Position numbers and translations under genes: made by a program. Below, one piece after another: positions 1-12,529 of a stretch of 38,775 nt of DNA. Position 1 is the stretch's first letter; each line of letters starts with the position of its first letter. The notes beneath the pieces were generated by a model that saw nothing but the letters and a program-made list of their open reading frames with translations, ran no database searches and was not told the DNA's origin. Origin of the DNA: Clostridia bacterium (GTDB taxonomy: Bacteria; Bacillota; Clostridia; Christensenellales; Borkfalkiaceae); the NCBI GenBank assembly GCA_017465145.1, contig JAFTWU010000002.1, forward strand, positions 1 to 38,775, given 5' to 3'.

Positions 1-420
1 AAAGTTGATATCTTCGTTGCCGGTGTAGGAACGGGCGGAACGGTTACGGGTGTAGGCAAATATCTAAAATCAAAAAATCCTAAAATTAAAGTCGTAGCCG
101 TTGAGCCTTCTTCTTCAGCCGTATTATCCACAGGCGTTGCAGGCTCACACAAAATTCAAGGTATCGGCGCAGGGTTTGTTCCTGACGTTCTCGATACTAG
201 CGTATATGATGAAATAATCACCGTCACTAATGAAGACGCTTTTGCAACGGGAAAAGAAATAGGAAAATTAGAAGGTGTTTTAGTCGGTATTTCTTCGGGC
301 GCAGCGCTAAAAGCTGCGATAGAACTTGCTAAAAGAGAAGAAAACGCAGGTAAAAATATCGTAGTTTTATTCCCTGATACGGGCGATAGATATCTTTCCA
401 CCCCACTTTTTAACGAATAA
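1..420 (+). CDS. cysK: Cysteine synthase (O-acetylserine sulfhydrylase), C-terminal part
   Basis: The first 139 residues visible are the C-terminal part of a PLP-dependent cysteine synthase; the start lies left of the window. The glycine-rich phosphate-binding stretch [13 protein letters not shown] near the first residues and the later motifs [11 protein letters not shown] and GISSGAA are those of CysK. Near the C terminus is [10 protein letters not shown], as in family members. The enzyme makes cysteine from O-acetylserine and sulfide in the cytosol. The serine acetyltransferase that supplies O-acetylserine is encoded at 16945-17589. No clear terminator follows; the metF promoter starts 23 bases after the stop. 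Confidence 0.95.
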
Positions 421-443
421 ACGCCGGTAACTACTTCATTTTA

Positions 444-472
444 TTGCAATTATACGGCAATAGTTGTATAAT
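444..472 (+). promoter_or_regulatory. Promoter of the metF-metH operon
   Basis: TTGCAA (444-449), a 17-base spacer and TATAAT (467-472) form a near-consensus sigma-A promoter. The leader to the metF ATG at 504 is only about 25 bases, so there is no room for a SAM riboswitch or T-box. An inverted repeat ATTATAC (449-455) / GTATAAT (466-472) covers the spacer and the -10 box and could be an operator; that is inference. Confidence 0.7.
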
Positions 473-503
473 AAATTCATACTAAAAAGATAGGTTATTT
501 AAT

Positions 504-1379
504 ATGAAGATAATTGATTTATTAACTGAAGAAAAATTAACCCTTTCGTTTGAAGTGTTTCCACCCAAAACCGAAAGCGCGTTTGACAGCGTAAGGAAAG
601 CAACTGAAGAGATTGCAAAATTAAAACCTGCGTTTATGAGCGTAACTTACGGTGCGGGCGGTGGAACGAGTAAATATACTTTGGATATCGCAAAAAACAT
701 ATTAAAAGAGTACGGTGTGCCGACTTTGGCGCACCTTACTTGCGTTTCTTCAACAAAACAAACGGTAAAAGAAAGAATAATCGATATTAAAAATTCGGGC
801 ATAGAAAACGTAATGGCACTACGTGGCGATATTCCTAAGGAACTTGAAAACGCCGATAGAAGCGACTGGGATTATCAGCACGCCATAGATTTAATAAGAG
901 AATTAAAAGAATATAGCCCTGACCTTTGCGTAGGCGGTGCGTGTTATCCTGAAATTCACCCCGAGAGCGTAAATCAAAAGGAAGATATAAAATACTTAAA
1001 AGAAAAGGTTGATGCGGGTTGTGATTTTTTAACTACGCAAATGTTTTTTGACAATAACCTTTTGTATAATTTTTTGTATAAAATTCGTGAAGCAGGTATA
1101 ACCGTTCCCGTTATGCCGGGCATTATGCCGATTACAAATGCAAATCAAGTTGAGCGCGCTATTAAACTTTCGGGTTCGTTTATGCCCCAACGCTTTAAGA
1201 GTTTGGTGGATAAGTTCGGAACGAATCCCGACGCTATGAAACAGGCGGGTATAATTTACGCAACCGACCAAATTATAGACCTTTTTGCAAACGGCATAAA
1301 GAACGTTCACGTTTATTCGATGAACAAACCCGACGTTGCTGAAAAGATTTTAACTAATCTATCAAGTATTTTGAACTGA
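504..1379 (+). CDS. metF: Methylenetetrahydrofolate reductase
   Basis: A 291-residue FAD-dependent TIM-barrel enzyme that reduces 5,10-methylene-THF to 5-methyl-THF, the methyl donor for methionine synthase. Diagnostic stretches are SFEVFPPKTES near residue 15, the conserved NVMALRGDIP loop around residue 100, and TTQMFFDN around residue 178, where the family has the folate-binding Q-FFD motif. The length equals that of bacterial MetF without a regulatory domain. The ribosome binding site (AGG about 10 bases upstream) is weak. The stop is followed after one base by the next start, so this is the first gene of a three-gene operon feeding MetH. Confidence 0.95.
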   Translation: MKIIDLLTEEKLTLSFEVFPPKTESAFDSVRKATEEIAKLKPAFMSVTYGAGGGTSKYTLDIAKNILKEYGVPTLAHLTCVSSTKQTVKERIIDIKNSGIENVMALRGDIPKELENADRSDWDYQHAIDLIRELKEYSPDLCVGGACYPEIHPESVNQKEDIKYLKEKVDAGCDFLTTQMFFDNNLLYNFLYKIREAGITVPVMPGIMPITNANQVERAIKLSGSFMPQRFKSLVDKFGTNPDAMKQAGIIYATDQIIDLFANGIKNVHVYSMNKPDVAEKILTNLSSILN

Positions 1380-1380
1380 T

Positions 1381-2049
1381 ATGGTATATCCCGTTTACGT
1401 TAAAAACTATCCTGCCCCTGATTTTAACAAAAAAGAAATTTTACGTTACGCTGGTGTTAAGGAAAATATATCTGAAATTAACGCGCTAATTGATGAGTGC
1501 ATAAAAGAATTAGACGGTAAATTAACTTACAAGGTGTGCTACAGCGAATATCCCGTAAAAATTATATCTAACGATATTGATTTAACTTTTACTGCGGTAA
1601 TATCTAAAGACCTAGCAAAAAACCTTAAAAACTGTAACCGTTTTATTCTTTTTGCTGCAACCGTCGGTTTAGGCGTAGATAGGCTTATTGCAAAATATAG
1701 CGCGTTATCTCCCGCCAAAGCGCTTATTTTTCAAGCAATCGGGGCGGAAAGAATAGAAAGCCTTTGCGATTTATTTAATAATGATATTAAAAAAGAGTAC
1801 AAAGCGGTTAGACCAAGATTTTCCGCAGGATACGGCGATTTATCGATAGAAATTCAAAAAGATATTTTTACGGCGCTTAACTGTTCTAAAAATATAGGCG
1901 TATCCTTAAACGAAAGCCTTTTGATGTCCCCGTCAAAATCTGTTACTGCGATAATAGGCATTGCAAACGATAGCGATTGCGCGGGTGAGAACGGTTGCTT
2001 TTCGTGCAAAAAAACCGACTGCGAATTTAGGAGAGAAAATGAAAATTAA
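1381..2049 (+). CDS. Stand-alone methionine synthase activation domain protein
   Basis: This 222-residue protein resembles the C-terminal, SAM-binding reactivation domain of cobalamin-dependent methionine synthase (Pfam Met_synt_B12 type). The segment around residues 140-200 (RPRFSAGYGDLSIEIQKDIF, then GVSLNESLLMSPSKSVTAIIG) matches the conserved R-x-GY-GD-x-K/Q and M-P-x-S-V pattern of that domain. The adjacent MetH lacks the domain, so the two proteins probably work in trans: this one would rebind cob(II)alamin for reductive methylation by SAM. It ends with four cysteines in a CFSCKKTDC tail, a possible metal or cluster site often seen in such split proteins. No Shine-Dalgarno is visible; translation is likely coupled to metF. 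It overlaps metH by 11 bases. Confidence 0.85.
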   Translation: MVYPVYVKNYPAPDFNKKEILRYAGVKENISEINALIDECIKELDGKLTYKVCYSEYPVKIISNDIDLTFTAVISKDLAKNLKNCNRFILFAATVGLGVDRLIAKYSALSPAKALIFQAIGAERIESLCDLFNNDIKKEYKAVRPRFSAGYGDLSIEIQKDIFTALNCSKNIGVSLNESLLMSPSKSVTAIIGIANDSDCAGENGCFSCKKTDCEFRRENEN

Positions 2050-4444
2050 AGAATATCTTAAAGACAACTTAATATTTCTCGACGGCGGAATGGGCACGCT
2101 TTTGCAAGCAAACGGATTAAGAGCAGGAGAACTTCCCGAACGATGGAACAAAACATACCCCGAAGTTATAACCGCAATTCACAAGGCGTATTTTGATGCG
2201 GGCAGTAACGTTGTCAGTACCAACACTTTCGGTGCTAATTCTCTTAAATTTTCTGACGATGAACTTGAAGAAATAATTAAGTGCGCCGCTCAAAACGCTA
2301 AAAAGGCAAAAGAACAATCGGTTGGCGCTAAAGAAAAATGGATAGCGCTAGATATAGGACCTACGGGCAGAATGTTAAAGCCTTACGGCGATTTTGATTT
2401 TGAAGATGCCGTTAAAGTGTTTTCAAAAACAGTAAACTTGGGCGTTAAATACGGCGTTGATTTAGTGTTTATAGAAACAATGAACGACAGTTACGAAACC
2501 AAGGCGGCGGTTTTGGCGGTAAAAGAAAACTGCGATTTACCCGTTTTCGTTTCTAACGCATACGGTGAAGACGGAACTTTAATGACGGGAGCAAATCCCA
2601 AAGCAATGGTCGCTATGCTCGAAGGTTTAGGCGTTGACGCAATAGGGGTAAACTGTTCGTTCGGTCCTAAAAAACTCGCGCCCGTTGTGGAAGAATACCT
2701 TAAATATTCGTCCATCCCCGTTCTTTTAGAGCCAAACGCAGGACTTCCTAAAGTAGTTGACGGAAAAACAGTTTACGACGTTCTACCCGAAGAATTTTCT
2801 TCTGACGTTAGCGCGCTTATTAAAAATGGCGTTCGTATTGCTGGCGGTTGCTGTGGCACTACACCCGATTATATTAAAGCGCTAGTAGAAAAAACCAAAG
2901 GTCAAGCGCCCGTTCAAATAGAAAAGAAAAACTTTTCGATGGTTTCATCTTATACTCACGCAGTTGAATTTGACGCTAAACCTATTTTGATAGGCGAAAG
3001 AATCAATCCGACGGGCAAGAAAAAATTTAAAGAAGCCTTAAAAGCAAACGATATAGACTATATATTAAAAGAAGGCGTTTCTCAACAAGAAAAGGGCGTG
3101 CATATTTTAGACGTTAACGTAGGACTTCCCGAAATTGACGAAACTAAAATGCTAACTACCGCCGTTAAAGAACTTCAAGCCATTATAGATTTACCCTTGC
3201 AAATTGATACGTCTAATATTTTAGCAATGGAAAAGGCGTTGCGCGTTTATAACGGAAAAGCAATGGTGAACTCGGTAAACGGCAAAAAAGAGAGTATGGA
3301 AGCCGTTTTCCCACTCGTAAAAAAATACGGCGGATTAGTGGTTTGCTTAACGCTTGACGAAAACGGTATCCCTGAAAAAGCCGAAGATAGACTAAACATT
3401 GCTAAAAAGATTTTAGCAAAGGCAAACGAGTACGGGATTGACAAAAAAGACTTGATTTTCGACCCGTTGGCGCTCACGATAAGCGCGGATAAAAACGCAG
3501 GAGTAGAAACGCTTAAAGCAGTAAAATTAATTAAAGAAAAATTAGGTGCAAACACTTCTCTCGGTGTTTCTAACGTATCGTTTGGACTTCCCGAAAGAGA
3601 TATTATAAACGGAAATTTCTTTACTCTTGCTCTTTATAACGGTTTATCGGCAGGTATAGTTAACCCCTATTCAAACGAAATTATGAAAGCGTATCACGCA
3701 TTTCGTGCGATTAATGGACTTGACAATAATTTTGAAAAGTATATTAAATTTACTGAAAACTTGCCAAGACAAACGACAGTTGCAGTAGATACGACTACAA
3801 AAACGACGGATAGCGGAGAATACAAATCCGAACTGCAAAAGGCGATAATCAAAGGTCTTAAGGAACAGGCAAGCGCAATTACCAAAGAATTGCTATTAAC
3901 TGAAAAACCGCTTGATATAGTCCAAAACGAGATTATTCCCGCGCTTAATATCGTTGGAGTTGGCTTTGAAAACAAAACGGTATATTTACCGCAACTTTTA
4001 ATGAGCGCAGAAGCGTCGAAGTCAGCGTTCGAGCGTATAAAAGAAAGTATGAGTGACGGAAAAACGGCAAACAAATGCGCTTTCGTTATCGCAACGGTAA
4101 AGGGAGATATTCACGATATAGGTAAAAATATAGTTAAACTGCTTTTGGAAAATTACGGATTTAACGTGTGTGATTTAGGTCGCGACGTTTCTCCCGAAAC
4201 AGTGGCTGAAAAAACTATAGAATTAAAAGCGCCGATAGTAGGTCTTTCCGCACTTATGACGACTACCGTTCCCGCAATTGAACAAACAATAAAATTATTA
4301 AGAGAAAAAGCGCCTTGGTGCAAAATCGTAGTTGGTGGCGCTGTGCTCAATAAAGAGTATGCGGATATGATAGGTGCTGATAAGTATGCAAAAGACGCTA
4401 TGGAAACGGTAAGGTACGCCGAAGAAATAAATAACAGTTTATAA
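2039..4444 (+). CDS. metH: Cobalamin-dependent methionine synthase lacking the activation domain
   Basis: The start is ATG 2039, preceded by AGGAGAG at 2029-2035; a longer frame from 1961 has no such site. The 801-residue enzyme moves a methyl group from methyl-THF to homocysteine via cobalamin. Order of domains: homocysteine methyltransferase barrel with zinc ligands Cys206, Cys271 and Cys272 (GVNCSFG, GGCCGTT); pterin-binding barrel from about 310 to 560 (LIGERINPTGKK at its start); four-helix cap around 600-670; B12-binding Rossmann domain with GDIHDIGKN, whose His692 is the lower cobalt ligand. Full-length MetH is about 1200 residues; the missing C-terminal reactivation domain is the upstream neighbour. 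Confidence 0.95.
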   Translation: MKIKEYLKDNLIFLDGGMGTLLQANGLRAGELPERWNKTYPEVITAIHKAYFDAGSNVVSTNTFGANSLKFSDDELEEIIKCAAQNAKKAKEQSVGAKEKWIALDIGPTGRMLKPYGDFDFEDAVKVFSKTVNLGVKYGVDLVFIETMNDSYETKAAVLAVKENCDLPVFVSNAYGEDGTLMTGANPKAMVAMLEGLGVDAIGVNCSFGPKKLAPVVEEYLKYSSIPVLLEPNAGLPKVVDGKTVYDVLPEEFSSDVSALIKNGVRIAGGCCGTTPDYIKALVEKTKGQAPVQIEKKNFSMVSSYTHAVEFDAKPILIGERINPTGKKKFKEALKANDIDYILKEGVSQQEKGVHILDVNVGLPEIDETKMLTTAVKELQAIIDLPLQIDTSNILAMEKALRVYNGKAMVNSVNGKKESMEAVFPLVKKYGGLVVCLTLDENGIPEKAEDRLNIAKKILAKANEYGIDKKDLIFDPLALTISADKNAGVETLKAVKLIKEKLGANTSLGVSNVSFGLPERDIINGNFFTLALYNGLSAGIVNPYSNEIMKAYHAFRAINGLDNNFEKYIKFTENLPRQTTVAVDTTTKTTDSGEYKSELQKAIIKGLKEQASAITKELLLTEKPLDIVQNEIIPALNIVGVGFENKTVYLPQLLMSAEASKSAFERIKESMSDGKTANKCAFVIATVKGDIHDIGKNIVKLLLENYGFNVCDLGRDVSPETVAEKTIELKAPIVGLSALMTTTVPAIEQTIKLLREKAPWCKIVVGGAVLNKEYADMIGADKYAKDAMETVRYAEEINNSL

Positions 4445-4462
4445 AAAAATAACAACTAAATA

Positions 4463-4604
4463 TAGCAATGCGAGTTGTGTTAATTCACAGAGAGTAGGGA
4501 AAGTGCGGTGAAAATCCGTCGCAACAGTCATTACGGTTAAAGTCCGATAGCCTACCCGTTGCTACAAGCGTTATCATCTCGGGCAATGGAGAACGTGATA
4601 ACGT
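4463..4604 (+). promoter_or_regulatory. Cobalamin riboswitch aptamer with downstream regulatory hairpin
   Basis: Between metH and a lipoprotein gene lies the typical B12 element: GGGAAAGTGCGGTGAAAATCC about 4498-4518, CAACAGTCATTACGG around 4524-4538, and the B12-box variant AAGTCCGATAGCCTACCC at about 4540-4557. GTAGG near 4496 can pair with CCTAC at 4551. After the box is a hairpin CGTTATCA (4569-4576) / TGATAACG (4596-4603) with a 19-base loop, the position of the loop that in known cobalamin riboswitches kisses L5. Seen directly: the boxes and stems; the ligand is taken from the family. Confidence 0.85.
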
Positions 4605-4612
4605 TATTTAAG

Positions 4613-4635
4613 CGTGCCCGAGTGGCACGTTTTTT
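4613..4635 (+). terminator. Riboswitch-controlled intrinsic terminator
   Basis: CGTGCC (4613-4618) and GGCACG (4624-4629) form a perfect six-base stem followed by a run of T. It lies just before the ribosome binding site of the next gene. TGCCCGAG (4615-4622), covering most of the left arm, is exactly complementary to CTCGGGCA (4578-4585) in the loop of the preceding hairpin, so that loop could act as antiterminator. Confidence 0.75.
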
Positions 4636-4655
4636 CATTTACAAGGAGAAAAAAT

Positions 4656-5120
4656 ATGAAAAAATTTACAACACTTTTATTTGCGTTTTTATTATGTTTT
4701 ATAACGGCTTTTTCAGTCGCTTGTAAAAACGGCGAAGCGACGGCAAAAATTGAGTCTGTAACCGAAACACAAATTGTTATGTCTATTGAAGAAACTGACG
4801 GCAAAGCCACCGCTTTTGATGCGCTTAAATCATTGAGAAATCAAGATTTAATTTCTTTTGATTATGTAGAAAGTTCTTATGGTGCTTATATTACGTCAAT
4901 CAATGGTAAAGCAGAATACGTGATAGAATCTACGTTAACTTCAAGTAAAGGCTATTCGTGGATGTTATATACATCGGATATGGAAAATGCCTACGAAGAA
5001 AAGAGCATTGAAATAAACGGAATAACTTGCGGGCAATCGGCTTTCGGTGCAAGTTCACTTGCCGTAAAGTCCGATGAATTATATGTTTGGGTTTTTGAGT
5101 ATTACGAATATACGTGGTAA
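4656..5120 (+). CDS. Lipoprotein with transcobalamin-C-like (DUF4430) domain
   Basis: The start is ATG 4656 after AAGGAG (4643-4648); the 154-residue product has a signal peptide with a lipid-attachment cysteine at about residue 23 (FSVAC). The rest fits the DUF4430 family, related to the beta domain of animal transcobalamin: FDALKSL near 60, YGAYITSINGKAE near 78, GYSWMLYTSD near 100, and a final YVWVFEYYEYTW. It would sit on the outer face of the membrane. Because a cobalamin riboswitch precedes it and an ECF-type S protein follows after three bases, I infer that it captures cobalamin or a precursor for uptake. DUF4430 domains also occur in unrelated surface proteins, so the ligand is unproven. 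Confidence 0.75.
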   Translation: MKKFTTLLFAFLLCFITAFSVACKNGEATAKIESVTETQIVMSIEETDGKATAFDALKSLRNQDLISFDYVESSYGAYITSINGKAEYVIESTLTSSKGYSWMLYTSDMENAYEEKSIEINGITCGQSAFGASSLAVKSDELYVWVFEYYEYTW

Positions 5121-5123
5121 AAA

Positions 5124-5678
5124 ATGAAAGATAAAGAATTGTTACAGGCAAAAACTAAAAAAGCGAGTATGCAGTCGGCAAAAGAGTGTGCCTACGTCGC
5201 CGTTTTCGTAGCCGTACTTATCGCCGTGCAGTTTGCTCTTTCTTTTGTGCCTGGCGTTGAACTAGTAACCGTTTTATTCGTTACGTTTTCTTTTGTTATG
5301 GGAATAAAACGCGGTGTAATTTCCGCTATTGCTTTTACCCTTTTAAGGCAGTTGGTTTTCGGTTTTGCACCAACGGTGCTTATTCTCTATCTCTTTTATT
5401 TTCCACTATTAACGTTTATTTTTGGGTTTTTAGGTAGTAAAATAAAGAATCCGTTAAAGTTGTTGCCACTTATCGTTTTAGTTTCTTGCGTGTGTACGGC
5501 TATGTTTACTATGTTAGATAACGTAATCACTCCTATTTGGTACGGGTACGGGCAAAAATCTACAAAGCTCTATTTTATGGCGTCTATTCCGTTTATGATA
5601 CCGCAAGTGATTTGCTCTCTAATTTCAGTATCAGTTTTGTTCTATCCACTATATAAGGTGTTTATAGCATTTAGATAA
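5124..5678 (+). CDS. ECF transporter S component, probably for cobalamin
   Basis: A 184-residue membrane protein with about five to six hydrophobic helices (first at about residues 22-45, then near 50-70, 80-105, 112-132, 150-180). Size, short charged N terminus and the pattern VELVTVLFVTFSFVMGIKRG are those of energy-coupling-factor substrate-binding (S) proteins. It has no ATPase or T subunit beside it, so it would share the group II module encoded elsewhere. Co-transcription with the riboswitch and the DUF4430 lipoprotein points to cobalamin as substrate. The family is poorly conserved, so the substrate rests on context only. Confidence 0.75.
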   Translation: MKDKELLQAKTKKASMQSAKECAYVAVFVAVLIAVQFALSFVPGVELVTVLFVTFSFVMGIKRGVISAIAFTLLRQLVFGFAPTVLILYLFYFPLLTFIFGFLGSKIKNPLKLLPLIVLVSCVCTAMFTMLDNVITPIWYGYGQKSTKLYFMASIPFMIPQVICSLISVSVLFYPLYKVFIAFR

Positions 5679-6021
5679 TTGTAAACGATTTTGTGGTACA
5701 AATTTTTAGGTACTACACTCTTACATCTTCATATTCGAATATTAAATCCGTGCGGAGTATAAACGCTTTAAGCGTGTTTTGATTCGTACGGATTTTTTAT
5801 CCCATTAGGTCGGTGGTAGTTTTATCAGCGACTTTTTAAAAGATATTTTTTAAGTTTTCGGGTTATATTTTTAATTTTCGTGTCCTTGGGTATATAGAGA
5901 GAATTTTAGCGTAAACCGTGTAATTTTCTATTTTTTGTCCTTGGATAAGTGAGGACTAAAATAAAAAAAACTTTAAGAAAGTGGTGCTTATGTGCTACTA
6001 AAAGGCAGTGCAGCTTAGCCT
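5679..6021. other. Gene-free stretch: hairpins, then leader of the deleted element copy
   Basis: The first part holds a weak hairpin GTGGTAC/GTACTAC (5695-5718) and a 12-base palindrome ATATTCGAATAT (5731-5742). It also holds the probable operon terminator at 5744-5798. From about 5880 the sequence resembles the leader of the mobile element at 7340-7460, including GTGGTGCTTATG, a three-codon frame Met-Cys-Tyr-stop (5990-6001) and a hairpin with AGGC/GCCT arms (6003-6020). I see no longer coding frame with a ribosome binding site. Confidence 0.6.
5744..5798 (+). terminator. Probable terminator after the cobalamin uptake genes
   Basis: AAATCCGTGCG (5744-5754) pairs with CGTACGGATTT (5785-5795) with one G-U pair, enclosing a second stem ACGC/GCGT near 5763-5774, and ends in a T run. 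Confidence 0.6.
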
Positions 6022-6813
6022 ATTCCCGATAATCCGTTCGATTTTTTAGAGCCTATACATAAACAAAAATGCCCTATATCCTATTACGATAAGACGGAAA
6101 TGAAAAAACTGTTTGAAGTGATAAAAGGTCACCCATTAGAAGTTCCATTAACACTTGCAGCCTATTATGGTTTTCGTAGAATTGAAGTGTTAGGAATTAG
6201 GTGGAGCGCGATTGATTTTGAGCATAAACTCATAACGATTAATCACAAGTTGCTTGTGGTTGAAAGACAAGTCATTTTAACCGACCAATTAAAGACCAAA
6301 ACGAGCCATAGAACGCTCCCACTGATTGCGCCCGTAGAAGAGTTGCTTCTTCGGCATAAGGCTAAAATAGAAGAAAATAAAGAGTTCTACGGCAACGTTT
6401 ATGACAAGAGGTTTTTAGATTACGTCTGTGTGGAAGAAGATGGTAAAATCGTATATCCCGACCATTTAACGAAAAAGTTTGCAGACTTGATTAAGGAAAA
6501 CGGTTTAAGACATATTCGCTTTCACGATTTAAGACATAGTTGTGCAAGTAATATGCTTGCAAGCGGTGTACCTTTGAAAGAAATTCAAGAATGGCTTGGA
6601 CACTCGGATTTTTCTACGACGGCAAACGTGTACTCTCATCTTGATTTTAGTTTTAAGATACAAGCGGCAAACACGATTTTATCTGCCTATTCCGATGAAG
6701 AACCTGCAATCAAGCAAGAAAGCGAACTTTCTCTTTTAGAAAAAGTAAATAAGGAAATGAAAACACTCGGTTTTACATCTATTAAAGAATATCTCGCTTA
6801 TAAAGCAAAATAA
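6022..6813 (+). pseudogene. 5'-truncated tyrosine integrase (catalytic domain only)
   Basis: The frame from 6022 matches integrase residues 169-431 of the complete copy at 10849-12144 over its whole length. An in-frame TAG at 6016-6018 and the leader junction replace the first 168 codons (arm- and core-binding parts). An internal ATG at 6100 could give a 237-residue catalytic fragment, and all catalytic motifs remain (GFRRIEVL, HDLRHSC, LGHSD, YSH). No ribosome binding site is seen before 6100. The open frame and conserved motifs suggest either young decay or some remaining use. Confidence 0.8.
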
Positions 6814-6830
6814 TAAAACTGAATATAAAT

Positions 6831-6875
6831 AGAAAAGACGGTATCGCTAAAAGCGGTGCCGTCTTTTCTATTGCT
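6831..6875 (+). terminator. Terminator after the truncated integrase
   Basis: An 18-base stem with a three-base loop (arms 6831-6848 and 6852-6869), core GACGGTATCGC paired with GCGGTGCCGTC, and T-rich right arm. The same terminator in diverged form follows the complete integrase at 12164-12195. Confidence 0.8.
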
Positions 6876-6919
6876 AAAAATAAATAAAAATATTACAAAG
6901 TTAAAAATGATATTAAGTG

Positions 6920-7424
6920 AAGGACGTTTATAAAAAAGTTTCCGACCAAAAAGAATTTTTTTATACCAATACCATAGTGGAAAGGTTTAATAAAAAGAAT
7001 TTTTAGTTTTAACCTTAACTTTTGCCTAAAAATCGCCCTTTTAAGTGAAGGGGTAAAAATATTTTTAGGTTTAATGGGGTTTACTTTTGAGTAAAAAAAG
7101 CCCTTTTATATGGGAAGCAAAATATTTTTAACTTATGGGGGTGCGGTTTTGCTTAGAATTAACCCTTTTAAGTAAAAGGTGTAAATTTTTTAAGAAATGG
7201 TTGTAAAAATGCTGTTTTCAACGGCTACCACTTGAGGGGATAAAAAATTTTGAAGAATTATTGAAGCAAATAACAAAACATCCCCATAAATACGGGAGCA
7301 AATGTCCATTAATAGTGAGTGGTAAAAATTTTTCGAGAGAATTTTCAATTTAGGGCTTGAAAAATGCTTCTTCAAAAGGCTTATAAGTGAGTGGGTTAAT
7401 AAAAACGTTAAGGAGGTGATGCTT
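6920..7424. repeat. Degenerate tandem repeats, unit about 62-70 bases
   Basis: This stretch without genes is built from roughly six to eight diverged units. CCCTTTT starts at 7036, 7101 and 7163, each followed by a purine-rich GTGAAGGGG-like part and an A/T run such as GTAAAAATATTTTTA. Weaker copies occur near 6979, 7229, 7305 and 7388. The unit carries no coding frame. It lies between the element's left limit and its first gene, where iterons or a regulated leader would be expected; which one cannot be told. Confidence 0.5.
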
Positions 7425-7460
7425 ATGGGCTAACTTAAAAGGCAATGCAGATGCGCCTAT
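7409..7460 (+). promoter_or_regulatory. Leader with extended Shine-Dalgarno, two-codon frame and hairpin
   Basis: TAAGGAGGTGAT (7409-7420) is complementary to 12 bases of the 16S rRNA 3' end. It is followed by ATG GGC TAA (7425-7433), a Met-Gly-stop frame. A hairpin with AGGC / GCCT arms follows (about 7440-7458). The arrangement is kept in the deleted copy at 5980-6020, where the frame reads Met-Cys-Tyr-stop, so it is likely functional. A ribosome held here could control the genes downstream; that is inference. Confidence 0.5.
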
Positions 7461-7494
7461 AAACGTTCTGTAAATAAATTAAAAGGAGATTAAA

Positions 7495-8226
7495 ATGGAG
7501 AAAAAATTAACTCGATTTACGTTCTACGATATGTATTGGAACGTAATCAAAAACGCCAAAGACGAAGAGATTGGGCGCTTTATTAAAGCCGTTTGCGCCT
7601 TTGTCTTTGACAACGTACCGATGGCTCCACCTAAGTCAGCGCAAGAGGATTATTATCAAAGTTGTATTCTATCTGAACTTGAAGAAGTTAAACGCCTTGA
7701 AACGCAAGGCAAAGTTCCTAAAAAGTATAACCAAAAGATGCTCCACTTTGCTTTCTTAGACGTGTACTATAAAGCCATCAAACTGATGAACGACGAAGAT
7801 AGCGGCGCATACTTAAAAGCACTCTGCTCTTATGCGTTCAACGGCAAGCAAACAAGCAAATTAAAACCACCTGTGGACGGATATTTTGAGTTTGCAAAAC
7901 TGAAATTAGAACTCTCTAAACTGCGTGCAACAAGTGGTAAAAAAGGCGGTAAAACCGAGCGTGTTAAAGTTACTGATGAAGAAATTAACGGCAAGACGGA
8001 AAAACTTGATTTTATACTATCGTACGAGGATTTTATGAAAGCGCATCCGCACATTGTAAACGACCTTTATCAAAGTAACAAACACCTTTTAAAAGGCATT
8101 ACCGATTGGACTCCTATCGACGTTGGATTAGATTATAGCGGTTATAAAAACTGTAAAAGTTTAACCAAGATTTTGGAAAACCGAAAAGAGATAGAACTTG
8201 CGGTTTTCAAGGCAAGCAAACTATGA
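7495..8226 (+). CDS. DUF6291-like protein with a duplicated domain
   Basis: A 243-residue soluble protein starting after AAGGAG (7483-7488). Residues 6-60 (FTFYDMYWNVIKNAKDEEIGRFIKAVCAFVF) and 84-140 (FAFLDVYYKAIKLMNDEDSGAYLKALCSYAF) are two copies of one helical module, as in DUF6291-type proteins of phages and mobile elements, which usually carry one. A charged linker (GKKGGKTERVKVTDEE) leads to a C-terminal part I do not recognise. It is the first gene of the mobile element, before the relaxase, so a replication or transfer accessory role is possible. The function of the family is not known to me. Confidence 0.65.
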   Translation: MEKKLTRFTFYDMYWNVIKNAKDEEIGRFIKAVCAFVFDNVPMAPPKSAQEDYYQSCILSELEEVKRLETQGKVPKKYNQKMLHFAFLDVYYKAIKLMNDEDSGAYLKALCSYAFNGKQTSKLKPPVDGYFEFAKLKLELSKLRATSGKKGGKTERVKVTDEEINGKTEKLDFILSYEDFMKAHPHIVNDLYQSNKHLLKGITDWTPIDVGLDYSGYKNCKSLTKILENRKEIELAVFKASKL

Positions 8227-8264
8227 AGCAAAACGGAAGCCAAATAAAGGTTTTAGGTAGCAGG

Positions 8265-8330
8265 CTAAGAAAATGCAGTTTCAACCGCATTTTGCCTTTG
8301 GAAAGTGGGATACCCACCTTTCCCTTTACT
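8265..8330. other. Candidate origin of transfer (two inverted repeats)
   Basis: In the 133-base gap before the relaxase are AAAATGC (8270-8276) / GCATTTT (8287-8293), and GGAAAGTGGG (8300-8309) / CCCACCTTTCC (8313-8323), which pairs with one bulged base. Two hairpins close to a relaxase gene are typical of oriT. A terminator is an alternative, though no T run follows directly. Confidence 0.4.
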
Positions 8331-8359
8331 CGTCGGTCAAATAATGGAGATAAACCGCT

Positions 8360-9712
8360 ATGAGCCAACCTGTAATTTTTGATATAGCCTATACTCCCTA
8401 TCGCCTTAAAAAAGGTTCGTCGCAAGCGGATATTGACAAACACGCAAAAGACCGTGCTTTCTTCGATATGTCGGGGCAAGACAATAACATTTACAAGTAT
8501 ATGACGGCTGAAGGCAAGATTACGGGCGAAGAAACTCAAAAGTTTACGATGCTTGAATATTTGCAAAAAAGTACGGGCGTTTTCAACCAAAACGGCTTAC
8601 TTTCAAAGCAAGAAGTTAAGGAAATGAAAAAACGCGCGCAAACGGGCGAAAAGAATATTTGGCACGGGTTTATCTCGTTCAATAAAGAGAACTCCGAGAA
8701 GATAGACACGCCTGAAAAATGTATTGACCTTATTAAGAAAACGTTCAATGAATTTTTTAAAGATGCCAGCTTTGACAAGGACAATATCGACCTTATGTGT
8801 GCGCTTCATTTAGACAAGCCCGAACACCTACATATCCACTATGTTTTTTGGGAACGAGCGCCCAAAATTAAGAACAAGCGTGCCGCCGGTTATAAATATA
8901 GAGCCAAAGGAAAAATTTCTAAAGATTCCATACTAAAAATGACCGAGCGATTAAACGCTTACACCATTAACGACGAACTCGACAAAAAACGAGATGAAGT
9001 TATTCAAAGTTTCTCGAAATCGGTAGCGTTTGAAAAGGCTCACTTTAAGGATTTAGCCGCAAAAACATTAAAGGAACTTGCGAAAGAATTACCTAAGGAC
9101 AAGCCTTGGTTCTACGCATCAAAAGAGATGGCACCGTTTAGGCATAAAATTGATATGGCAGTAGATTTTTTGCTCTCTTGCGACAACAATGCGTACGCCG
9201 CACATAGAAGTTTCGTAAAAGAAATGGACAAGAAAGAAGAAGCCTTAAAAGGAATTATGGGCAAGTATTATGCCAATCAAGTTAAAGAAGAAATGCAAAC
9301 TGCGGACTTGTTTCCTAATTACACGGATTTTCACGGCGTAGGCACAATTCACACGATAGAAAAACTACGTTGGGATTATAGGCGTAGGCTTGGTAATATC
9401 GTTCTTAAAAAGGCGAAATACATCCAAGACAATACTTATACCTACGACAAAAGATTCAAGCGTAAAATCAACGATAAATTTCTTAAACGAAACATCGCTA
9501 TTTCTAATAAGAAAATCAAAGGTTATATGCAAGGTCTATTCTCGTCTGTGGCTAAAATGTTTATGCCCGAAACAAACAACTACCGTAACCGCTTGCAAGA
9601 AATTGAAGAAGAAATGATTGCTAAGCGCAAGGAAGAAGAACAACTCATATCTTCCCCACCGCCACAGCAAAACGAAAAGTACAACCGCTACAAATTTGGC
9701 AAAGGAGATTAA
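8360..9712 (+). CDS. MobL/MobP-type relaxase
   Basis: A 450-residue relaxase. The histidine cluster HLDKPEHLHIHYVFWE (His150, His156, His158, His160) is the HUH metal site of MOBP/MobL relaxases, which nick oriT and stay joined to the DNA through a tyrosine. The N-terminal half holds the nuclease fold. The C-terminal half (about 220-450) is highly charged and helical, with a basic stretch near 380-400 that may bind DNA, and a Gln/Pro-rich end. GGAGATAA at 8345-8352 precedes the ATG. With an integrase and no secretion genes it defines the element as mobilizable rather than self-transmissible. Confidence 0.85.
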   Translation: MSQPVIFDIAYTPYRLKKGSSQADIDKHAKDRAFFDMSGQDNNIYKYMTAEGKITGEETQKFTMLEYLQKSTGVFNQNGLLSKQEVKEMKKRAQTGEKNIWHGFISFNKENSEKIDTPEKCIDLIKKTFNEFFKDASFDKDNIDLMCALHLDKPEHLHIHYVFWERAPKIKNKRAAGYKYRAKGKISKDSILKMTERLNAYTINDELDKKRDEVIQSFSKSVAFEKAHFKDLAAKTLKELAKELPKDKPWFYASKEMAPFRHKIDMAVDFLLSCDNNAYAAHRSFVKEMDKKEEALKGIMGKYYANQVKEEMQTADLFPNYTDFHGVGTIHTIEKLRWDYRRRLGNIVLKKAKYIQDNTYTYDKRFKRKINDKFLKRNIAISNKKIKGYMQGLFSSVAKMFMPETNNYRNRLQEIEEEMIAKRKEEEQLISSPPPQQNEKYNRYKFGKGD

Positions 9713-10576: not shown

Positions 10577-10852
10577 ATGGAGGAAAATACTATAAACAAC
10601 AAAATAACGGCGCAAAGCGCTTTTAATAAAAATATTGTAAACAATGAACCAAAAGCAAACGAAATGTTTGAAAGCTATCCTGACGTTGTCAGTGTGGAAG
10701 ATTTAATGCAAATGCTCCAAATCGGACAAGTACTTGCATATAAATTGGTAAAACGAGGAGAAATAAAATCAAGAAAAGTTGGTAGAGAATACAAAATCCC
10801 AAAGATTAACGTAATCTCATATCTTCTTAATGGTACGGAGGTGAAATCGTGA
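10577..10852 (+). CDS. Excisionase-like helix-turn-helix protein
   Basis: A 91-residue protein. The N-terminal 35 residues are polar and probably disordered; residues 38-85 (VVSVEDLMQMLQIGQVLAYKLVKRGEIKSRKVGREYKIPK) form a MerR-like HTH of the excisionase (xis) family. Its stop overlaps the integrase start by four bases (GTGA), so the two are translated together, as expected for a protein that steers the recombinase toward excision. The GGAGG lies over 20 bases before the ATG, so the start is uncertain; ATG 10664 would still keep the HTH. Confidence 0.75.
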   Translation: MEENTINNKITAQSAFNKNIVNNEPKANEMFESYPDVVSVEDLMQMLQIGQVLAYKLVKRGEIKSRKVGREYKIPKINVISYLLNGTEVKS

Positions 10853-12144
10853 ACGTAAGCATTCACGCAAAAAAAGGATTTTTATACGGCGTTATAACTT
10901 ATTACGACGAAGCAAACTTAAAAAGGCATAAATGGATAAGCACGGGCTTAAAAGAACGTGGAAATAAAAAAGAAGCCAAAAGAATTGCCGAAGAAAAAGC
11001 TGAAGAGTTTGAAAAAGAACTTATTGCTTCCCGTAATAAAATTTCTCGTCGTGCAAACGTGAGTGAAGCTGATAAGTCGGATGCAGTAATGCTTTTTACT
11101 GATTACTGCGATAGATACGTTGAAGAAAGAAAGCCAAAACTTTCTGCTTCGGTGTATTACGGCTACAAACGCTATATTCCACTCTTTAAAAAATTCTTTG
11201 ATAAGCGCAAGCTACGTTTAATCGACGTTACCGAAAAGGAATTAAACGAGTTTTACGATAGCGAAAGAAAACGTGGCGTGAAAGAAATTAGTCTAAAACA
11301 TTATAACTGTGTTCTTCGTCCCGCACTTCGCAAAGCGTATCAAGCAAAGTTGATTCCCGACAATCCGTTTGACTTTTTAGAGCCGATACATAAAGAAAAA
11401 TCGCCAATGTCTTATTACGACAAAGGCGAAATGAAAAAACTGTTTGAACTTATAAAAGGTCATCCGTTAGAAGTTCCTTTAACACTTGCCGCCTATTACG
11501 GTTTCCGTAGAAGCGAAGTGTTGGGTATTAGGTGGAGCGCAGTCGATTTTGAGCATAAACTCATAACGATTAATCACAAGGTGCTCGTTGTTGAAAAGAA
11601 AGTCATTTTAAGCGACGAATTAAAGACTAAAACGAGCCATAGAACGCTTCCGCTGATTGCGCCCGTAGAAGAACTGCTTCTTCGCCATAAGGCTAAAATA
11701 GAGGAAAATAAAGCCTTCTACGGCAACGTTTACGACAAGAGATATTTAGACTACGTTTGTGTGGAAGAAGATGGTAAAATCGTTTATCCCGACCACTTAA
11801 CGAAGAAGTTTGCAGACTTGATTAAGGAAAACGGTTTAAGACATATTAGATTTCACGATTTAAGGCACAGTTGTGCAAGTAATATGCTTGCAAGTGGCGT
11901 ACCATTAAAAGAAATTCAAGAGTGGCTTGGTCACTCGGATTTCTCGACAACGGCAAACGTGTATTCACACCTTGATTTCAGTTTTAAGATAAAAGCGGCA
12001 AATACAATTTTGTCTGCCTATTCTGATGAAGAACCTGCAATCAAGAAAGAAAGCGAACTTTCTCTTTTAGAAAAAGCAAGTCAAGAAATGAAAGCACTCG
12101 GTTTTACTTCTATCGAAGAATATCTCGCTTATAAAGCAAAATAA
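10849..12144 (+). CDS. int: Tyrosine recombinase (integrase)
   Basis: A 431-residue integrase starting at GTG 10849 after GGAGG (10835-10839). It has an N-terminal AP2-like/arm-binding part (KGFLYGVITYYDEANLKRHKWIS), a SAM-like core-binding domain at about 80-165, and the catalytic domain with Arg220 (GFRRSEVLG), His336 and Arg339 (HDLRHSC), His362 (LGHSD) and the nucleophile Tyr372 (VYSH). It inserts and, with the upstream HTH protein, removes the element by site-specific recombination. It is the last gene of the element, facing the tRNA-Arg gene. The truncated copy at 6022-6813 is its close homologue. Confidence 0.95.
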   Translation: MNVSIHAKKGFLYGVITYYDEANLKRHKWISTGLKERGNKKEAKRIAEEKAEEFEKELIASRNKISRRANVSEADKSDAVMLFTDYCDRYVEERKPKLSASVYYGYKRYIPLFKKFFDKRKLRLIDVTEKELNEFYDSERKRGVKEISLKHYNCVLRPALRKAYQAKLIPDNPFDFLEPIHKEKSPMSYYDKGEMKKLFELIKGHPLEVPLTLAAYYGFRRSEVLGIRWSAVDFEHKLITINHKVLVVEKKVILSDELKTKTSHRTLPLIAPVEELLLRHKAKIEENKAFYGNVYDKRYLDYVCVEEDGKIVYPDHLTKKFADLIKENGLRHIRFHDLRHSCASNMLASGVPLKEIQEWLGHSDFSTTANVYSHLDFSFKIKAANTILSAYSDEEPAIKKESELSLLEKASQEMKALGFTSIEEYLAYKAK

Positions 12145-12452: not shown

Positions 12453-12529
12453 TGGCGCACCCTAAGAGGCTCGAACTCCTAACCTTTGGTTCCGTAGACC
12501 AACGCTCTATCCAATTGAGCTAAGGGTGC
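12453..12529 (-). tRNA. tRNA-Arg(ACG)
   Basis: A complete 77-base tRNA with encoded CCA. Acceptor arms GCACCCT/AGGGTGC, D arm GCTC/GAGC, anticodon stem TTGGT/ACCAA with loop CTACGGA (anticodon ACG), and T arm AGGAG-TTCGAGC-CTCTT. It faces the integrase with its 3' end and its own terminator is intact. Confidence 0.95.

Follow-up and report, generated by a model that had tools for sequence, protein, structure and literature searches.

Which molecule, if any, is handled by a lipoprotein and a small membrane protein that follow a cobalamin riboswitch as a two-gene unit? We considered this question for a locus in the Clostridia bacterium assembly GCA_017465145.1 (Borkfalkiaceae), a draft genome of 1.51 Mb in 24 contigs with 94% completeness, using the first 38,775 nucleotides of contig JAFTWU010000002.1 (the whole stretch of DNA analyzed, hereafter the window) and 201 genomes of the family.

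Genomic Context and Predicted Regulation of the Unit

A cobalamin riboswitch at the head of the unit, as proposed in the initial annotation, was confirmed by a match to the full AdoCbl-II model RF01689 (positions 1–81), with a score of 46.3 bits where the gathering score is 36.5 bits. Genes of the metF and metH type lie 5′ of the riboswitch, directly before the lipoprotein/S protein unit (Table 1); the start of the MetH-type gene (2036) was chosen inside an ORF listed from 1961. The lipoprotein gene begins with an ATG at 4656, with AAGGAG 7 nt ahead of it, and the predicted lipobox is present (FSVAC) in a product of 154 a.a. The gene of the membrane protein (S protein) begins 3 nt past the lipoprotein stop codon, and the next same-strand ORF after it (among listed ORFs of at least 90 a.a) is a recombinase at 6100, about 420 nt off. 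This position, with the metF/metH-type genes upstream, fits the proposal that the riboswitch controls only two genes.

Table 1. Features of the riboswitch-controlled unit and the genes preceding it (window coordinates).
Feature	Position	Strand	Evidence
metF-like methylenetetrahydrofolate reductase	504..1379	+	Pfam MTHFR 2.1e-85; upstream B12-use gene
Methionine synthase activation-domain protein	1381..2049	+	Pfam Met_synt_B12 2.9e-8
B12-dependent methionine synthase, MetH type without activation domain	2036..4444	+	Pfam S-methyl_trans, Pterin_bind, B12-binding, B12-binding_2
AdoCbl-II cobalamin riboswitch aptamer	4485..4561	+	RF01689, 46.3 bits, E 3.1e-8
Expression-platform hairpin with CUCGGGCA at 4578-4585	4567..4605	+	Fold z -4.52 (4562-4605)
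Intrinsic terminator with UGCCCGAG at 4615-4622	4610..4632	+	Fold z -4.45 (4607-4636), U run
Lipoprotein, 154 a.a, DUF4430/transcobalamin-beta-like	4656..5120	+	Lipobox, family profiles
ECF S-component-like membrane protein, 184 a.a, distant CbrT relative	5124..5678	+	Family profiles

Downstream of the aptamer, the segment at nt. 4578–4585 (CUCGGGCA) is the exact complement of nt. 4615–4622 (UGCCCGAG). The two segments pair into an antiterminator helix when nt. 4572–4625 are folded alone, and when the whole leader is folded, the first hairpin and the terminator prevail over this antiterminator. We examined 76 sequences (the window plus 75 contigs), each with 150 nt or more ahead of the lipoprotein; 65 of them have a hairpin with a T run there, compared to 90 of 380 approximate dinucleotide shuffles. 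On the simplest reading, which also sets the direction of the switch, the folded platform is consistent with an off switch at the level of transcription: with ample cobalamin, the AdoCbl-II riboswitch would favor the first hairpin, the terminator (nt. 4610–4632) would form, and both genes would be turned off, whereas without ligand the antiterminator would form between the two complementary segments. Class II cobalamin riboswitches are reported to vary in the form of cobalamin that they sense (PMC11477304).

Beyond the S gene, at 5.9–12.5 kb of the window, lies a mobile element. Its recombinase ORFs at nt. 6100–6813 and nt. 10849–12144 (Phage_integrase, 3.1e-26) have a common ~900 bp repeat with 89% identity, a relaxase-like ORF (nt. 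8360–9712) scored 23.2 bits, slightly under the cut-off, and a tRNA-Arg(acg) lies in the same region (nt. 12453–12529). A second locus in the source genome was considered and rejected: the redundant contig G000:C24 (locus L031) carries a second copy of the riboswitch, lipoprotein, and S genes, but nt. 1–4587 of this contig are 99.3% identical to nt. 4085–8675 of the window, and the contig is probably a strain variant within the assembly.

The Lipoprotein and Its Kinship with Transcobalamin

DUF4430-like motifs had been noted in the lipoprotein from its sequence. At the family level this stood, with matches to DUF4430 (PF14478) at E ≤ 0.1 in 45 of the 47 proteins of alignment A1 (best 5.9e-7), which comprises the window lipoprotein and 46 of 71 relatives, duplicates and most of the longer and more divergent ones being excluded. 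The window protein itself scored 18.3 bits, under the Pfam cut-off of 23.8 bits, and is therefore termed DUF4430-like here and not filed as a member. A search of the whole source genome with PF14478 gave no match at E ≤ 0.001, as the score of the window lipoprotein falls short of this limit, and a search of the window proteins against NCBIfam returned below-cut-off matches only.

With the window lipoprotein, A1, and a profile of the lipoprotein family (A3, 77 sequences) as queries, the PDB yielded no significant relevant match; A3 brought up transcobalamin-2 at E 2, ranked under several chance matches. Since direct PDB searches with both families of the unit gave nothing significant of relevance, bridging profiles were used. 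For the lipoprotein, this bridge was A5, a profile of six DUF4430-type proteins encoded beside distant relatives of the S protein, of which three of the four scanned pass the Pfam cut-off. Comparison of A3 with A5 (hhalign) gave a probability of 98.3 (E 2.3e-14), versus 3.5 for a reversed control and at most 0.6 for column-shuffled controls (n = 20). A5 in turn matched human transcobalamin-1 at 9.8e-6 (a single A5 member at 9.4e-5) and the solved protein 3u7z at 4.2e-15. By way of these bridge profiles only, the lipoprotein family appears homologous to the transcobalamin beta domain, which bears out the resemblance claimed initially. The sequence kinship with the beta domain of animal transcobalamin (4kki) thus runs through DUF4430 proteins, and compared to the animal protein, the lipoprotein has extra residues between its WMLYTSD and GASSL motifs.

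The Membrane Protein and Its Kinship with CbrT

The description of the second protein as ECF-type was upheld in part: PF12822 (ECF_trnsprt) matches at E ≤ 0.1 were present in 11 of the 54 proteins of the S-protein alignment A2 (23 longer relatives excluded), whereas the window S protein had no Pfam match, PF12822 included, and is for this reason called CbrT-related and not filed as a member. PDB searches with the window S protein, A2, and the S-family profile A4 (79 sequences) gave no significant relevant match, neither to CbrT nor to BtuM. A4 aligned with A6, a profile of nine distant S relatives, with a probability of 99.5 (E 2.2e-23, 174 columns), a link that is partly selected because the A6 members were found with A4. 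In the PDB, A6 matched 6fnp chain A at 6.9e-41, with the runner-up at 0.016; the entry 6FNP is the ECF-CbrT structure (PMC5997447).

The controls for A4 gave 7.8 with another ECF S family (A7), 0.3 when reversed, and at most 1.3 when column-shuffled (n = 20); given that A6 was found with A4 and that A7 consists of three sequences (a PF12822 S family from these genomes with no settled substrate), the contrast between A6 and A7 is partly selected as well. A single, unselected CbrT relative aligned with A4 at 71.2 (E 3.7e-5, 158 columns). Through the bridge profile, these comparisons suggest that the S family is akin to CbrT over most of its chain.

Length variants of the S protein were also seen. 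At loci L091–L110, from several genera, it is mostly 239–290 a.a long and has an insert, often hydrophobic, after window residue ~108, which could add membrane helices. S reading frames of 625–631 a.a occur in L131 and L136 (also L047); a meaningful S fusion was considered and dropped, the S frame of L131 running into the next gene and L136 being equally long. The downstream gene that the L131 frame enters is nucleotidyltransferase-like, and in other loci it is UDPGP-type.

Conservation of the Arrangement across the Family

Among the 201 family genomes, the S protein was found in 125 and the lipoprotein in 97, with AdoCbl-II matches in 38 and class I cobalamin riboswitch matches in 81. We listed 124 S places (the S-positive genomes G016, G032, G046, and G198 are counted as genomes, with their places outside the 124). 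A lipoprotein lies no more than 400 bp upstream at 92 of these and a cobalamin riboswitch no more than 1.5 kb upstream at 95, with no lipoprotein match at 32 and neither partner at 16. Riboswitch–lipoprotein–S triples, for which the initial annotation had suggested a genome search, make up 79 of the 124. The riboswitch is of class I only at 59 places, of class II only at 29, and matches both models at 7, the other 29 having no riboswitch match. The arrangement is well beyond chance.

Counted from the riboswitch, the 201 genomes contain 117 distinct cobalamin-riboswitch places. S follows at 95 of them, the lipoprotein without S at 3, and a FecCD permease at 6, and the remaining 13 are of other kinds. 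For cobalamin riboswitches, the kind searched, this agrees with the expectation that the pairs do not occur mostly under other riboswitches. Of the 13 other places, three are close to a contig end (G059, G023, and G093) and three stand before a lipoprotein-like start (L200 and L201, each with a sub-threshold DUF4430 match, and L197 without one). Another three of the 13, AdoCbl-II matches before another ECF S gene (G193, G024:C4, and G103:C73), were dropped, with scores of 25.7 to 29.3 bits, under the gathering score. The places left over are in G176, G040, G064, and G094. At the last of these (L202), a class I cobalamin match precedes lipoprotein-like ORFs of 387 and 170 a.a and a membrane-protein-like ORF of 198 a.a, all with no Pfam match, perhaps a further variant of the arrangement; in G040 (L198), a class I match precedes a 726-a.a lipoprotein-like surface protein.

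The named contigs with relatives (best 80 of 210) include ones from Candidatus Borkfalkia, Coproplasma, Faecicola, and many ruminant-gut clostridial MAGs. Within these best 80, S is present in all and a DUF4430-type ORF lies upstream in 78, while in L162 and L173 S stands directly behind MetH without the lipoprotein; the gap between lipoprotein and S has a median of 3 nt and lies within −45 to 60 in 75 of the 77 measured. Neighbor ORFs were available for 77 of the best 80 contigs, and their clusters were named by Pfam on one representative each. The commonest, UDPGP-type (25 loci) and DegV (19 loci), are not B12 genes; B12-linked clusters comprise MetH/corrinoid (14), MTHFR (9), Met_synt_B12 (8), RACo (6), and PduO type (3).

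B12 Metabolism and Other Transporters

In the source genome, no match was found to FecCD (BtuC), Peripla_BP_2 (BtuF), the MetE N-domain, or CbiC, absences that are not final given the 94% completeness of the assembly. The claim that the route has no classical BtuF agrees with the missing Peripla_BP_2 and FecCD matches. CbiC is needed for the corrin ring; it was present in 4 of the 201 family genomes, none of the four S-positive, and the source bacterium seems unable to make vitamin B12. A single CbiQ-family match identified one EcfT, on contig G000:C10, in the gene order ecfA1-ecfA2-ecfT-truA-rplM-rpsI (the last three encoding TruA, L13, and S9). This one EcfA1A2T module lies apart from the S gene, as in Group II ECF systems.

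B12-binding_2 domains were present in 94 genomes, 83 of them with S (Fisher p 2e-13, the genomes not being independent). Six of the 11 genomes with B12-binding_2 but no S match have a riboswitch-linked FecCD permease instead, and in the two of these six that were scanned, a Peripla_BP_2 protein is encoded between the riboswitch and FecCD. As FecCD also serves iron carriers, the label BtuC-type rests on the riboswitch here. Among the S-less genomes with B12-binding_2 beyond these six, G113 has a lipoprotein match and G069 a riboswitch before a lipoprotein. S without a B12-binding_2 domain was seen in 42 genomes, and S together with a FecCD gene in 13.

Distant Relatives outside the Family

Outside the family, the A4 profile was run on 298 genomes of the phylum and matched in 20. 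Directly upstream of S, a small DUF4430-type ORF was found in 7 of the 20 (by A5, and also by A3 with E from 1e-9 to 0.015), A5 having been built from six of these seven ORFs. Five of the 20 short stretches contain a cobalamin riboswitch, which in L227 lies behind S, not before it. Another ten of the 20 were extended to 13–14 kb. EcfT, EcfA, and one or more DUF4430-type proteins are encoded in every one of them; eight also encode a protein resembling the alpha/alpha-toroid protein of L223, and four contain a cobalamin riboswitch, which stands directly before a toroid/DUF4430 gene in L235 and L239. L225 and L230 were covered by the short stretch only, outside these ten, and no such neighbor was seen in L216.

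On a plasmid of Enterococcus durans, the genes of a CbrT relative (6.3e-21 against 6fnp chain A), a ribonucleotide reductase, an adenosyltransferase, and a DUF4430 lipoprotein lie together, with no riboswitch above threshold in this stretch. Cobalamin ECF transporter is the annotation of both the CbrT relative and the lipoprotein; an annotation service labels such lipoproteins part of a cobalamin ECF transporter, a labeling on which we found no paper. The plasmid DUF4430 genes of Companilactobacillus and Priestia have no ECF gene annotated alongside, and DUF4430 alone therefore does not mark such a unit.

Proposed Function and Alternatives

Given the riboswitch, the kinship with transcobalamin and CbrT, and a host that seems unable to make B12, the pair is very probably a B12 uptake system. 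We consider it highly probable that the unit is an importer of cobalamin or another complete cobamide, in which the lipoprotein and the CbrT-like S protein work on a shared ECF module under repression by the riboswitch. The lipoprotein, anchored outside the membrane, would bind the corrinoid with its lone transcobalamin-beta-like domain and would either concentrate it at the S protein or hand it over. The S protein would dock on the common EcfA1–EcfA2–EcfT motor, carrying the corrinoid across the membrane, at least for the neighboring MetH. In this scheme, we infer that the corrinoid is bound and handed over, that the shared module serves the S protein, and that the switch turns the genes off. 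Cobalamin uptake, as first proposed, is well supported by riboswitch linkage, conservation, and profile kinship. The further claim that the route is two-part is not supported, because an ECF module is very likely needed: a one-copy module is present, and the related CbrT is reported to need such a module (PMC5997447).

The most serious rival holds that the S protein and the shared ECF module suffice, the lipoprotein being an optional scavenger, storage, or selectivity factor with no hand-over. ECF-CbrT does support cobalamin uptake in Escherichia coli with an S component and a module, according to its description (PMC5997447), and S stands without the lipoprotein, directly behind MetH, in two of the best 80 of 210 loci. 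We nevertheless think this reading unlikely, since the lipoprotein is kept beside S in the other 78, with a median gap of 3 nt in 77 loci, and DUF4430 proteins also lie beside S in most distant relatives. The substrate might instead be a corrinoid precursor, a lower-ligand precursor (cobinamide, alpha-ribazole), or another tetrapyrrole. CbrT is reported to take cobinamide too (PMC5997447), and a Lactobacillus protein, CblT, is described as transporting alpha-ribazole (PMC8123684); with CbiC unmatched in the source genome and in every S-positive genome among the 201, with MetH and PduO-type linkage in part of the loci, and with the kinship to CbrT, we regard such substrates as improbable.

It appears more improbable still that the S protein works alone in the manner of BtuM, an S-like protein reported to support uptake when the host has no ECF module (PMC6072759). 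No module gene is seen beside the pair in the window, which would suit this idea, but the source genome encodes a complete module at the site where shared modules usually lie, distant S relatives lie near EcfT and EcfA in all ten extended loci, and CbrT by itself gave no growth in the published work (PMC5997447). That co-regulation of the pair by the riboswitch serves some other purpose, e.g., methionine metabolism, and that neither protein handles corrinoids, is hardly credible: the window proteins do score under their family cut-offs, yet they are kin to CbrT and the transcobalamin beta domain, and riboswitch-linked FecCD genes occur in six family genomes without S.

Within the preferred reading of a riboswitch-repressed corrinoid importer, we tentatively raise a split transcobalamin, a doubtful but possible form in which the beta-type lipoprotein and the outer face of S would clamp the corrinoid, S replacing the alpha/alpha toroid half. 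If true, capture and membrane docking would be one step, and the unit would be an ECF importer that strictly requires a co-receptor outside the cell. More broadly, the pair raises the question of whether ECF import can be made dependent on a binding protein outside the membrane, and under cobalamin riboswitches it links proteins of the transcobalamin type with the CbrT line of S components. B12 transporters unidentified in many gut genomes are described as an open problem (PMC6593275), and the pair provides a testable B12 importer for a mostly animal-gut family in which CbiC is nearly absent.

Comparison with Known Systems

ECF-CbrT of Lactobacillus delbrueckii (6fnp) resembles the pair in having a cobalamin S component and a shared module, the link running from A4 over A6 to 6fnp. 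B12-use genes lie near both: nrdJ and pduO are described at CbrT, and MetH and PduO-type genes are found at part of the S loci. Unlike in ECF-CbrT, S here is very diverged, adjoins a lipoprotein, and stands under an AdoCbl-II riboswitch. BtuFCD is comparable in pairing a surface binding protein with a permease behind a cobalamin riboswitch, but belongs to other protein families, with FecCD and Peripla_BP_2 unmatched in the source genome. BtuM is likewise an S-like B12 transporter, yet works without an ECF module according to its report (PMC6072759), unlike the S protein proposed here.

The general idea of B12 scavenging by bacterial transcobalamin-like proteins was already predicted by Burroughs et al. 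in 2007 (PMC1796856), who described secreted SLBB proteins of Gram-positives, resembling the C-terminal domain of transcobalamin, beside CbiO/CbiQ as predicted scavengers of B12 or its precursors, usually in bacteria without key B12 synthesis enzymes, and proposed that animals acquired transcobalamin from such bacteria. The animal proteins are described there as combining the beta domain and an alpha/alpha toroid in one chain. Compared to the SLBB-CbiO/CbiQ systems, the present locus has a lone beta-type domain, an S component, and a riboswitch, with no toroid or module gene. The literature searched, mostly without subscription papers, contained no study of this pair in these bacteria. As far as that literature goes, what is new is a stripped-down form across much of one family, consisting of a lone beta-type lipoprotein, a diverged CbrT-like S protein, a class I or II riboswitch, and a shared module, together with riboswitch-linked FecCD genes where the pair is missing.

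Nearer than the window pair to the SLBB-CbiO/CbiQ type are loci L233–L242, in which distant S relatives lie near large surface proteins with an alpha/alpha toroid and DUF4430, some with S-layer or LPXTG anchors, that adjoin EcfT and a long EcfA. These loci represent fuller bacterial transcobalamin-like systems. In L241, a molybdenum cofactor riboswitch (nt. 1628–1747) occurs in the same 14-kb stretch as the DUF4430/ECF operon.
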